Assembly: GCF_900230215.1 (NCBI RefSeq) | Contig: NZ_LT907982.1 | Location: 3,210,001-3,274,000 of the forward strand | Source: Jatrophihabitans sp. GAS493 | GTDB taxonomy: Bacteria > Actinomycetota > Actinomycetes > Mycobacteriales > Jatrophihabitantaceae | Length of the DNA: 64,000 nt | Direction of reading: 5' to 3' | Shown here: piece after piece, positions 54,872 to 59,681 of the stretch | Layout of the letters: each line of letters starts with the position of its first letter | Position numbering within the stretch: the first letter of the stretch is position 1 | Notes under the pieces: generated by a model | The model's input: the letters and a program-made list of their open reading frames with translations, nothing else | The model's database searches: none | Told to the model about the DNA's origin: nothing | Program-made: the position numbers and the translations under genes

Positions 54872-56389
54872 ATGCTCTTCGCGTCGGTGGCCACCGCCTC
54901 TCTCCAGCTCGCCGGTGAACCAGGGCGGCTGAAGAAGACCGCGCTGCTGGCCGAACTTCTGCGCGGGCTCGAGCCAACTGAGATCGAACCGGCGGTGGCC
55001 TGGTTGTCGGGCGAGTTGCTGCAAGGCCAGATCGGCGTCGGATGGGCGGCCCTACGGACGATCCCAGCGGCCGGCGACGAACCGGTGTTGGCGATCGGCG
55101 ACGTGCAACAGGCCCTCGACTCGATTGCGACGATCTCCGGGGCCGGGTCCAGGGCCGCGCGCGCCGCCGAGCTGACCAGACTCTTCGGTGCGGCGACTGC
55201 CCACGAGCAGAACTTTCTGCGGCGGCTTATCGGAGGTGAACTGCGTCAGGGTGCGCTGGGCGCGCTGATGCTCGACGCCGTGGCCGCCGCGGCCGAAGTT
55301 CCCATCACAGCGGTGCGACGCGCCGCAATGCTCCACGGGGATACCCCGGCCATCGCCCGCCTGGCCCTGCTCGGCGGCGTCACGGAGGTCGGGGCGGTGG
55401 GGCTGGAGGTCGGTCGAGCAGTCGCCCCGATGCTGGCCAAACCTGGCGGCTCGATCGTCGATGCGATTGCCCGTCTCGGCCTGGCCGGATGGGAACAGAA
55501 GCTCGATGGGGCGCGCATCCAGGTCCACCGCGATGGCGAGAATGTCCTTATTTTTACCAGGTCACTGGACGAGATAACCGATCGGCTTCCGGAGATCGTG
55601 GAGCTGGCGCGGCGACTCGGGGCGACCCGCTTCGTCCTCGACGGCGAGGTTCTGCTGCTGCGTCCCGATGGGCGCCCGCACCCATTTCAGGTGACGGCGG
55701 CACGCTTTGCCAGCGGCAACTCCGCGGAGGCGGAGGCAGCGGCCACACTCACCCCGTTCTTCTTCGACCTGCTGCACCTGGACGGGGTGGATCTCATCGA
55801 CGAGCCGGCCGCCACCCGGATCGAGGCCTTGGAAGGGTTGGTCCCTGCGCAGTATCGTCCCCGCCGGGTCGTCACCGCCGACGCTGAGGTGGCGAGCGCA
55901 TTCTTCGAAGACGTCGTCGCCTCCGGGCACGAGGGCGTCGTGGCTAAGTCGCTTAGCGCTAGCTACGAGGCCGGTCGTCGAGGCGACTCATGGTTGAAGA
56001 TCAAGCCGGTGCACACCCTCGACCTGGTCGTTCTCGCCGTGGAATGGGGATCGGGTCGCCGCACCGGGCTGCTCTCCAACATCCACCTCGGTGCCCGCGC
56101 CGCGGACGGTGGGTTCGTGATGCTGGGCAAGACATTCAAGGGAATGACCGACGCGATGCTGCAGTGGCAGACCGAACGGTTTCGGGAACTGGCGGCCACG
56201 CCGCTGGAGCAACGGGTGGTGGCGCTTCGGCCCGAGCAGGTGGTCGAGGTGGCCATCGACGGAGTGCAGCGTTCCACCCGCTATCCGGGTGGGGTGGCGC
56301 TGCGGTTTGCCCGCGTTCTTCGCTACCGCGACGACAAGCCGGTAAGCGAGATCGACACCGTCGAGTCCGTCCAGGCGATGCTGGGGTAG
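54872..56389 (+). CDS. ligB: ATP-dependent DNA ligase (LigB-like)
   Basis: A 505-residue ATP-dependent ligase like mycobacterial LigB (Rv3062). The N-terminal helical DNA-binding domain (about 1-185) precedes the nucleotidyltransferase domain with the adenylated Lys in EQKLDGARIQVH (Lys 210), motif III/IIIa, motif IV HEGVVAKSL and motif V SWLKIKPVHTLDLVVLAVEW. The OB domain follows with GKTFKGMTDAMLQWQTERF. Probably a repair ligase; the essential NAD+ ligase is not in the window. Confidence 0.93.
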   Translation: MLFASVATASLQLAGEPGRLKKTALLAELLRGLEPTEIEPAVAWLSGELLQGQIGVGWAALRTIPAAGDEPVLAIGDVQQALDSIATISGAGSRAARAAELTRLFGAATAHEQNFLRRLIGGELRQGALGALMLDAVAAAAEVPITAVRRAAMLHGDTPAIARLALLGGVTEVGAVGLEVGRAVAPMLAKPGGSIVDAIARLGLAGWEQKLDGARIQVHRDGENVLIFTRSLDEITDRLPEIVELARRLGATRFVLDGEVLLLRPDGRPHPFQVTAARFASGNSAEAEAAATLTPFFFDLLHLDGVDLIDEPAATRIEALEGLVPAQYRPRRVVTADAEVASAFFEDVVASGHEGVVAKSLSASYEAGRRGDSWLKIKPVHTLDLVVLAVEWGSGRRTGLLSNIHLGARAADGGFVMLGKTFKGMTDAMLQWQTERFRELAATPLEQRVVALRPEQVVEVAIDGVQRSTRYPGGVALRFARVLRYRDDKPVSEIDTVESVQAMLG

Positions 56390-56435: not shown

Positions 56436-56687
56436 CTAGTTGATCAGTCCTGGTAGCGGGAGCAGATCCGGGGCCGGGCGGCGCTTTCGGCGCAGCCAGA
56501 CCCGGCGGCTGCCATCGCCATAACGAAGTACCCGGGCCAGTTCCCAACCGCCGTACTCGGCGTGCAGGGAGAGCTGCACGGCCGCCGAAACCCGGGTCAC
56601 GTCGGCGGGCAGACGCAGCGGCGCGTACTCCCAATCGGGGTCCGCGTCGCTTGATTGTGCCGACGAGCTTGCTCTCATCGACTCCAT
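56436..56687 (-). CDS. DUF5703 family protein
   Basis: An 83-residue protein whose core WEYAPLRLPADVTRVSAAVQ and HAEYGGWELARVLRYGDGSR with VWLRRKRR match DUF5703. Function unknown. An in-frame ATG at 56678 is an alternative start. Convergent with the ligase, 33 nt downstream of the RecD-like gene on the same strand, so it may be read through from it. Confidence 0.75.
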   Translation of the reverse strand: MESMRASSSAQSSDADPDWEYAPLRLPADVTRVSAAVQLSLHAEYGGWELARVLRYGDGSRRVWLRRKRRPAPDLLPLPGLIN

Positions 56688-56720: not shown

Positions 56721-58628
56721 TCACCGATCGGTGGCACCGACGCTGGCGATCAGCTCCTGCTGAAGCCGCGTTCGCCGGGGGATGGCACCAACGCGCCGGA
56801 CCGCGCTGGCCAGGGCACCCCCGACACCGTGCACCACGGAGAGGTGTCGCTGGGCTCGGGTCAACGCGGTGTAGACCAGCGGCCGGGAGAGCATGCGTCC
56901 CGCCTCCGGAGGGAGCACGACGACGACGGCCGGGAACTCCGATCCCTGGGCTCGGTGCACGGTGATCGCCCACCCGTGCACCAGGTCGGCCAGTGCTTTG
57001 CCCTTGATCTTCGCCGGACCGGAGGCGAAGTCGACGGTGACCACCCCGTCGGGGGCGACATCACTCACCACTCCGACCTCGCCATTGGCATAGCCGTTCG
57101 GCTCGGCCTCCAGATGGTTCGCCGTCGCCACCACACGGTCGCCCGGATCGAAACGGCGCCGGTCGGTTCCCGGGTTTAGCCGCTGCTTCAGCACCTCGTT
57201 CAGTCCCTGCGTCCCGGCCGGACCGCGATGCACCGGCGTCACGACCTGCACCTGCGAAGTCGGAATGCCCAGGACCCGCGGGATCGAATCCGTCACCAGC
57301 TGAACCACCCGGTGGGCGGCGTCGGCACTGCCGCGGGCGGCGACGATGACCACCTCGTGCGTCGGGTCGTCGACGGCGGCGAGCTCGCCGCCGCGCACGC
57401 TGGTCGCGAGCTTCGCGATGGTGCCTCCATCGGCCTGCCGGTACAGCGTGGTGAGCTCGGTGACGGCCACCACCCGGGCGTCTATGAGATCGCCGAGCAC
57501 CCGTCCCGGCCCGATGGACGGCAGCTGCGCAGCATCCCCGACGAAGACCAGATGCGTGCCGTCGGCACAGGCGTCGAGTAGCGCATGGGCCAGATCGACG
57601 TCGAGCATGGAGGTCTCATCGACGACGACGATGTCCTCGTCCAGACGCCACTCGCGGTTGCGGGCGAAGCCGGTGGAGAAGTTGACTTCGTCGCCCCGCT
57701 GCCGCGGTTGCGCGCCGAGCAATCGGTGCAGCGTCGAGGCCGGTGCCTCACAGAGCTCCTCCAGCCGCTTCGCCGCTCGACCGGTCGGCGCGGCCAATGC
57801 CACGGTTTTCCCGACGGATTCTGCTGACGCGACTATCGCGGCGACGGTCCGGCTCTTACCGGTGCCCGGGCCCCCGGTGAGTACGCTGACCCCATCGCTC
57901 ATCGCGAAGCCGACCGCCGCCCGTTGGGTCTGATCCAATTCGGCGACGGCTGGATGCTTCTTGTCGACCTTGATCGCCTTCGCGTTCGTCAACAGTCGCT
58001 GGATATCCGCAGCGATTGCTTGCTCGGCCGCCACATAGTTCGGCAGGCCCAGAGTCGCGTCGTCGAAGAGCACGACCACCTCAGCCTCGACGGCGGCATC
58101 GATCGCCCGCGCGGCGTCGCCGACGCTCCATTCCCGCAGGGCGTCCACGGCATGCTCCCGTTCGGTGACGGTGTGCCCGTCGCGGGCCTGGTCGCTGAGC
58201 ACATGGGCGACCAGAGCCCGAGCTCGTCGTGGGTCGTCGCGGCTCACCCCCGGGATCGCGATGCGGGCGACTCGATCGGCATCGGCGGGGGTCAGTCCGC
58301 CAACCAGCAGCAGCCGCCACGGGTCCTCGCGGATCAGCCGTGGCGCCGCCGGGCCGAGCGCGTCGACGATGCGAGCGGCCACCCGTGCATCGACCTGGGC
58401 CGGCTGCAGTAGCTCGACGACCTCATATTCGGGCGCTGCGCCCAGGAACGAGGAGAAGAGGCGTCCGGCCCGGGTCGGACCAACCTTGGGCAGGAGGGCG
58501 AGGTTGCTCGCGCTCACATCCTCGGGTCCACGGATGTCGGCGGTCTCGAGAGCGGCGGCCAGCGTCTTGCCGAGACCCGGCCACAGGCCGGCGGCACAGA
58601 ACGCGGTGAATACCGCTTCGTCGCTCAG
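56721..58628 (-). CDS. RecD2-like helicase with helix-hairpin-helix N terminus, probable CTG start
   Basis: A 598-635 residue SF1 helicase of the RecD/RecD2 type. Walker A is LTGGPGTGKSRTVAAI, Walker B VVVDETSMLDV, then VFVGDAAQLPSIGPG and the C-terminal WAITVHRAQGSEFP. The first ATG/GTG/TTG is GTG 58517, but 37 in-frame codons upstream encode helix-hairpin-helix-like sequence (LWPGLGKTLAAALETA). CTG at 58628 overlaps the aldo/keto reductase stop (CTGA) and has GAGG seven bases upstream, so I extend to 58628. If wrong, the gene is 56721-58517. Confidence 0.85.
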   Translation of the reverse strand: MSDEAVFTAFCAAGLWPGLGKTLAAALETADIRGPEDVSASNLALLPKVGPTRAGRLFSSFLGAAPEYEVVELLQPAQVDARVAARIVDALGPAAPRLIREDPWRLLLVGGLTPADADRVARIAIPGVSRDDPRRARALVAHVLSDQARDGHTVTEREHAVDALREWSVGDAARAIDAAVEAEVVVLFDDATLGLPNYVAAEQAIAADIQRLLTNAKAIKVDKKHPAVAELDQTQRAAVGFAMSDGVSVLTGGPGTGKSRTVAAIVASAESVGKTVALAAPTGRAAKRLEELCEAPASTLHRLLGAQPRQRGDEVNFSTGFARNREWRLDEDIVVVDETSMLDVDLAHALLDACADGTHLVFVGDAAQLPSIGPGRVLGDLIDARVVAVTELTTLYRQADGGTIAKLATSVRGGELAAVDDPTHEVVIVAARGSADAAHRVVQLVTDSIPRVLGIPTSQVQVVTPVHRGPAGTQGLNEVLKQRLNPGTDRRRFDPGDRVVATANHLEAEPNGYANGEVGVVSDVAPDGVVTVDFASGPAKIKGKALADLVHGWAITVHRAQGSEFPAVVVVLPPEAGRMLSRPLVYTALTRAQRHLSVVHGVGGALASAVRRVGAIPRRTRLQQELIASVGATDR

Positions 58629-59587
58629 CTGAGATCCTCGGGGTAGGCCCGGTAGGGACGTGAGACGTCGTCGAGGGCCTGTTGGATCTCCGGCGGAAGC
58701 GCCAGCGTCTCCGAGGCCAGCGCCGAGACGAGCTGGCCGAGGGTGCGGGCCCCGATGATCGGCGCGGTGATCCCGGGCTGGTCGCGAACCCAGGCCAGCG
58801 CCACCGCGATCGGCGAGGCGGCCAGGCCCTGGGCCGCGGTGGCGACGGCCTCCACGATGCCGATCTCACGGTCGGTGACGATGGGCAGGTTCCGTCCAGA
58901 GCGGGCTGAGCGAGAGTCCGCCGGGATTCCGGTGCGGTATTTCCCGGTCAGCACGCCGCCACCGAGCGGGGAGTACGGCAGAACTCCGAGACCCATCGCG
59001 GCGCAGGCGGGCAGAACCTCACGTTCCAGGCCCCGATCAAGGAGGCTGTAGCGGGACTGATTCGCGATGATCGGGGCCCGACCGACACCGGCGCGCTGCC
59101 AGGTCGCGGCGCGGGCGGTGTGCCAACCGTCGTAGTTCGAGACGCCCACGTACCGGGCCTTTCCGGAGCTCACCGCATAGTCGAGCGCGCTCAGTGTCTC
59201 CTCGAAACCGACGGTGTCGTCCGCTATGTGCACGTACCAGAGGTCAACGTGATCAACGCCGATCTGGGTCAGCGACTGATCCAGCCGCCGAAGCAGTTCG
59301 CCCCGGGAAGCGTCGATGCGCCGCTCGGTCTCGGTGCGGTAGATCCCGGCCTTGGTCGCGATCACCAGCTCCTCACGGGGCACGACATCGGCGATGAGCT
59401 GCCCGAGGATCTGCTCGGCCTGCCCCAGACCATAGGAGACCGCAGTGTCGACGAGAGTGCCACCGGCGTCGCGGAACGCAATCAGCTGGGCCGCTGCCTC
59501 GTCGGCGTCCGTCTCCTGGCCCCAGGTCATGGTGCCCAGCCCCAGGTGCGACACCGACAGTCCGGACTGACCTACCTTGCGTTCCAT
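58625..59587 (-). CDS. aldo/keto reductase
   Basis: A 320-residue NADPH-dependent TIM-barrel oxidoreductase. The catalytic tetrad is visible: DTAVSYGLG (Asp, Tyr), IATKAG (Lys), WYVHIAD (His). Conserved YSPLGGGVLTGKY and the NADP-binding GARTLGQLVSAL near the C terminus. Substrate unknown. ATG 59587 or GTG one codon upstream; the 94-nt gap to the divergent LLM gene holds both promoters. Confidence 0.91.
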   Translation of the reverse strand: MERKVGQSGLSVSHLGLGTMTWGQETDADEAAAQLIAFRDAGGTLVDTAVSYGLGQAEQILGQLIADVVPREELVIATKAGIYRTETERRIDASRGELLRRLDQSLTQIGVDHVDLWYVHIADDTVGFEETLSALDYAVSSGKARYVGVSNYDGWHTARAATWQRAGVGRAPIIANQSRYSLLDRGLEREVLPACAAMGLGVLPYSPLGGGVLTGKYRTGIPADSRSARSGRNLPIVTDREIGIVEAVATAAQGLAASPIAVALAWVRDQPGITAPIIGARTLGQLVSALASETLALPPEIQQALDDVSRPYRAYPEDLS

Positions 59588-59681
59588 CACAGGAAGAACT
59601 TACTGGGCCGGGCTGTACCTCCAGACGCCCGCCGGAGCGCCACGCTTCGGGCCTGAGCGCCCATCGCCTAATGTGAGCGAC

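Follow-up and report, generated by a model that had tools for sequence, protein, structure and literature searches.

Switches to CUG as a start codon proved extremely rare in a reconstruction of start-codon evolution (PMC5622118): of 61,358 ancestral AUG starts 2 made this switch, and of 5,080 ancestral GUG starts 1 did. Initiation complexes do form on CUG but are less stable than those on AUG, GUG or UUG, and a variant of the anticodon stem of the initiator tRNA discriminates less against this codon (PMC11497404, in the sections accessible). Conserved non-canonical starts of other kinds are already known. In Streptomyces, sigR begins with GTC in 32 of 34 species, has a strong, conserved ribosome-binding site and is repressed by IF3, while infC, which encodes IF3, has a conserved ATT or ATC start, a feature also stated for Streptomyces (both according to the accessible portion of PMC5472188). 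Translational restart at four-base gene overlaps has been described for ATGA (PMC6728339) and for ATGA or GTGA (PMC10666635). The accessible text of the former contains no occurrence of CTGA and that of the latter none of CTG or CUG, while CUG and similar terms gave no match in the accessible text of PMC12548453.

Here we analysed a window of 64,000 nucleotides from Jatrophihabitans sp. GAS493, in which a RecD2-like SF1 helicase gene would begin at a CTG codon overlapping the stop codon of the gene upstream. Of the described systems sigR is the nearest precedent, as far as the accessible text of PMC5472188 goes: like the helicase it is actinobacterial, and its non-canonical start has been kept within a lineage behind a ribosome-binding site. 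It differs in that the codon is GTC and not CTG, and in that the sigR start is experimentally proven, whereas the case for the helicase is comparative. The restart pairs with a −4 overlap share the same-strand arrangement and the four-base geometry of this locus, and in relatives of the helicase the junction is indeed ATGA or GTGA. A CTG kept by restart over a stop would constitute a new form among conserved non-canonical starts; in the open-access literature we found no report of a conserved CTGA restart or of a CTG start for this helicase.

All features of the junction lie on the minus strand and are numbered by position in the window. The helicase gene (56721..58628) comprises 635 codons plus stop if begun at the CTG (58626..58628). 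This codon overlaps the TGA stop (58627-58625) of an aldo/keto reductase gene (58625..59590; 321 aa, Pfam PF00248) that precedes the helicase in tandem, so that the two co-directed genes share an NTGA sequence with a −4 overlap in which the putative start is CTG instead of ATG or GTG. The resulting CTGA spans 58625..58628, and a Shine-Dalgarno-like GAGG (58636..58639) lies seven bases ahead of the CTG. The original prediction had named this overlap and this GAGG, and had stated that the 37 codons from CTG 58628 to GTG 58517 are open and free of ATG, GTG and TTG; direct reading of the sequence bore out all three statements. The helicase frame stays open for 79 further codons above CTG 58628, into the reductase gene, and these likewise lack ATG, GTG and TTG. 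In the 60 codons before the helicase core, the window contains no ATT, ATC or ATA, and CTG 58628 is the sole CTG.

The helicase gene was found in all 24 examined genomes of the family Jatrophihabitantaceae. In one of them (G003) the contig ends inside the helicase gene, and this genome was therefore left out, which gave 23 readable junctions. The initial search had returned a match in 49 of 61 genomes, on contigs of Jatrophihabitans and other actinobacterial assemblies, and starts had been read in 30 loci, with matches of ∼39% identity left out. The reductase lies upstream of the helicase at all 23 readable junctions. At 19 of these, the reductase stop is embedded in a CTGA with the CTG in the helicase frame, so the same codon recurs across species; its distance to the D4 position varies from 3 to 16 codons while the frame is constant. 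In 16 of these 19 genomes the stretch from the CTG to the conserved core is free of ATG, GTG and TTG, so that at 16 of 23 family junctions no such codon within this stretch can supply the conserved N-terminus. The other three (G008, G011 and G019) have an additional GTG or ATG after the CTG, so that use of the CTG is not required there. In the four remaining family genomes the CTGA is either out of frame (G005, G009 and G014) or lies 51 codons ahead of the core (G007), and all four have an ATG or GTG start available. Absence of a canonical start is thus associated with a near in-frame CTGA (16/19 versus 0/4; Fisher P-value 0.004, uncorrected for kinship). These data suggest that the CTG start is very probably fixed in most of the Jatrophihabitantaceae.

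As an alternative, translation might begin elsewhere, at a canonical codon within the reductase gene or at a different near-cognate codon. Four of the 16 genomes with CTG only do offer an upstream canonical codon: G002 has an ATG 36 codons ahead of the core, and in G004, G016 and G022 the nearest such codon lies 310, 166 and 184 codons upstream of it, respectively. In the other 12 the whole open frame ahead of the core is free of ATG, GTG and TTG, and the lack of ATT, ATC, ATA and any second CTG in the 60 codons preceding the core in the window speaks against a near-cognate substitute. We consider such a start very improbable.

The 37-codon N-terminal segment (58518..58628) is the part of the protein that is lost when only ATG, GTG and TTG are annotated as starts. 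In an alignment of 31 sequences, consisting of the query and 30 relatives that were chosen among the fetched loci from Jatrophihabitantaceae and other families, residues F7, F10, C11, L15, W16 and I32 are invariant. All of these except I32 fall within the conserved core FTAFCAAGLW (residues 7-16; 58581..58610). The segment was present in 31 of 31 aligned sequences, and none of them starts at the GTG position without it; this homologue check had been proposed along with the CTG start. Compared to the sister species G001, which is 91% identical, the segment has a pN of 0.037 and a pS of 0.395, much like the bulk of the helicase gene (pN 0.050, pS 0.498), while the pattern is reversed in the two shifted frames of the segment (pS ∼0.03, pN ∼0.17). 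Judged by these substitution patterns, the segment is coding and under purifying selection.

The segment is also confidently modelled. The AlphaFold model has mean pLDDT values of 87, 89, 90 and 93 for residues 1-40 in blocks of ten, and contains a helix at residues 3-12, a turn and helix at 21-26, and helices at 40-43 and 51-63. In this model the first 37 residues look like the part that completes a tandem helix-hairpin-helix. The label of helix-hairpin-helix-like that the original prediction had given to the segment is here our reading of the model and of the sequence, as there is no Pfam match over the segment.

These properties of the segment weigh against translation from GTG 58517 (58515..58517), which would yield a 598-residue protein. 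This codon is the first ATG, GTG or TTG of the helicase frame and would be the choice of any gene finder limited to those three. A start at this position would lose the invariant residues F7 to I32 together with a stretch that is confidently modelled and under purifying selection, and it would cut between the two halves of the modelled helix-hairpin-helix. Moreover, in the 16 genomes with CTG only, the first canonical codon is scattered from 8 to 55 codons after F7 with no common place. We accordingly rejected the GTG as the start, and regard its use as extremely improbable. We give just as little weight to a lost start, with the segment being a decayed remnant or the product of sequencing errors: we found nothing in its favour, the same in-frame junction recurs in 19 genomes, several of which are single-contig assemblies, and purifying selection on the segment is hard to reconcile with decay.

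Downstream of the segment, the 635-residue protein matches HHH_RecD2, AAA_30, AAA_19 and UvrD_C_2 above the Pfam cut-offs (PF14490, PF13604, PF13245 and PF13538), while PF18335 (SH3_13) remained under its cut-off. The HHH_RecD2 match covers residues 68-154 and leaves the N-terminal 37 residues outside. Since the NCBIfam model for RecD2 (TIGR01448) scored 444.1 bits against a cut-off of 500, we refer to the protein as RecD2-like. Its closest solved relative by both sequence and fold is RecD2 of Deinococcus radiodurans (3gpl, 3gp8 and 3e1s). The best fold match is 3gpl (E 8.6e-36, TM 0.67/0.80) and the best sequence match in the PDB is 3e1s (E 1.8e-51), which spans residues 81-609 and thereby leaves out the 37-residue segment.

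Outside the family we compared 75 loci, which are mostly from Geodermatophilaceae and do not represent 75 independent cases. All were recounted by alignment after a stricter, motif-based first pass; this stricter core motif was missing in 8 of the 75 loci, and it is therefore not universal. The reductase lies upstream of the helicase in 74 of the 75 loci, and in 56 an ATGA (20) or GTGA (36) close to the core is in frame with the helicase. CTGA occurs at eight outgroup junctions, always out of the helicase frame, and none of the 75 loci needs a CTG start.

Ribosomes might instead shift frame (by −1 or +2) at the stop of the reductase, which would produce a reductase-helicase fusion and leave the CTG without a role as a start. 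In favour of such a fusion, the helicase frame is open across the junction and above it in the 19 genomes, and 12 of the 16 genomes with CTG only lack a canonical start in that open frame. Yet there is no common slippery sequence, as the last reductase codon is AGC, CGC, TCC, CAC, GGC or AAC depending on the genome, and the helicase has an ATG or GTG start of its own at the junction in the 56 outgroup loci and also in 4 of the 23 family genomes. We therefore hold the fusion to be very improbable. Weighing the family conservation and the coding nature of the segment, we consider it highly likely that, as the original prediction had proposed, the helicase starts at CTG 58628, in our reading by restart at the overlapping reductase stop behind the Shine-Dalgarno sequence.

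In the protein tree the Jatrophihabitantaceae form one clade (support 97/99) and CTG is found in both main branches. Support is good for 13 of the 30 inner branches of this tree, with another 12 being open, and G009 and G021 are represented by partial rows. The simplest history would be a single switch to CTG, at the base of the family or close to it, followed by a few later replacements. The placement is approximate because G005, which has an ATG, stands at an unresolved fork. G008 combines the CTG with a later GTG, while its sisters G009 and G014 use GTG and ATG, respectively, and have the CTGA out of frame; this sister group (loci L004, L036 and L005) looks like a start-codon replacement in progress.

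From what was directly observed, namely the position of the CTG, its conservation, the coding segment and the lack of alternative starts, we infer initiation at the CTG, the restart and a reason for the retention of the codon. In the proposed mechanism, a ribosome or its small subunit would end the reductase at the TGA and be held there by the GAGG seven bases upstream. It would then restart on the overlapping CTG with the initiator tRNA, giving the 635-residue helicase. The junction, which has ATG or GTG in the sister lineage, would have become CTG at the base of the family or close to it. Most genomes retain this CTG, probably because with the Shine-Dalgarno sequence and the coupling it is sufficient and because a low helicase output is tolerated or favoured.

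The distribution of Shine-Dalgarno motifs is consistent with a weak codon that is supported by a Shine-Dalgarno sequence and a stop overlap. GAGG, GGAG or AGGA was found 4-10 bases upstream at all 19 in-frame CTGA junctions of the family versus 5 of the 56 outgroup ATGA or GTGA junctions, an excess that may reflect shared descent, since the GAGG is at the same time coding sequence for part of the reductase tail and persists in G009 and G014, whose starts lie elsewhere. Across 2.0 Mb of the genome, the same 4-mers precede 49 of 124 ATGA and 21 of 67 GTGA restart genes. The conserved C of the CTGA proves little by itself, because it is also present in the four family genomes that do not use the CTG and because C is common before TGA (541 of 986 genes ending in TGA across 2.0 Mb of the genome); for the latter reason we do not claim that this C on its own is under selection.

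The infC gene of this genome (L259; G000:C1:3188771-3189268), which lies outside the window, appears to use an ATC start preceded by AAGGAGG, in an open frame that has no ATG, GTG or TTG before the conserved beginning of IF3. Initiation at non-canonical codons is therefore very likely to operate in this genome. With the helicase, infC would share a conserved non-canonical start, whereas it differs in being a self-regulated gene for a translation factor and in using ATT or ATC rather than CTG (accessible part of PMC5472188). We also considered a changed initiator tRNA and did not retain it: the single genome match, in a tRNA-like context, is to the normal initiator stem-loop GGGCTCATAACCC, in a search that used the normal form and that a variant gene could escape. 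By analogy with sigR, IF3 might limit the helicase. Only tentatively, and as something we think rather doubtful, do we suggest that the CTG is under selection as a weak, IF3-sensitive start that would keep the helicase low, tied to reductase translation and responsive to initiation fidelity.

To place the junction in its genomic context, we surveyed 2.4 Mb (half of the genome) and the window with our own codon-usage gene-calling script, for which reason the junction counts are approximate. The original prediction had likened the CTGA to many ATGA and GTGA couplings nearby, and such a geometry was indeed present in the window, where 6 of 7 ATGA and 4 of 8 GTGA lie in the downstream frame. In the 2.4 Mb, this was the case for 175 of 211 ATGA, 134 of 191 GTGA and 17 of 40 TTGA junctions. 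A general use of CTG starts was rejected, as the excess of in-frame CTGA in the 2.4 Mb was not significant (93/357 versus 88/423 for TAA/TAG, P-value 0.089). Among the 369 close co-directed gene pairs (357 + 12 for the 2.4 Mb and the window) whose first gene ends in CTGA, 12 passed a filter that demanded an open frame at the overlap and the absence of ATG, GTG and TTG both from the 60 codons preceding it and from 15 or more codons following it. The gap was coding-like in two of these 12, the helicase (+15.9 bits over 37 codons) and a transporter gene (+6.9 bits over 39 codons), while the other ten had negative gap scores.

The transporter gene (L234; G000:C1:503001-504563, outside the window), whose product we take to be of the DHA2-type MFS class, is a likely candidate for a second CTG start in the genus. 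It has a CTGA overlap with GGAG seven bases upstream and no ATG, GTG or TTG in frame before the core, and all three features recur in its counterpart from G001 (L235), so that both species of the genus share them. Among more distant relatives, several have an ATG near the same place.

The retention of CTG at 19 of 23 junctions, with ATG or GTG in the sister lineage and different starts in a few members of the family, provides a natural experiment on weak start codons: on what such a start needs, for instance a Shine-Dalgarno sequence and a stop overlap, and on what purpose it serves. If the CTG is the start, standard gene finders would miss the N-terminal part of the helicase, and a finder restricted to ATG, GTG and TTG would truncate it at different places in different genomes. 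On its other side, the helicase is followed closely by a small open reading frame of 83 aa on the minus strand (window 56436-56687), which contains WEYAPLRLPADV and may resemble DUF5703 proteins, and is convergent with a plus-strand gene for an ATP-dependent DNA ligase (window 54872-56389).
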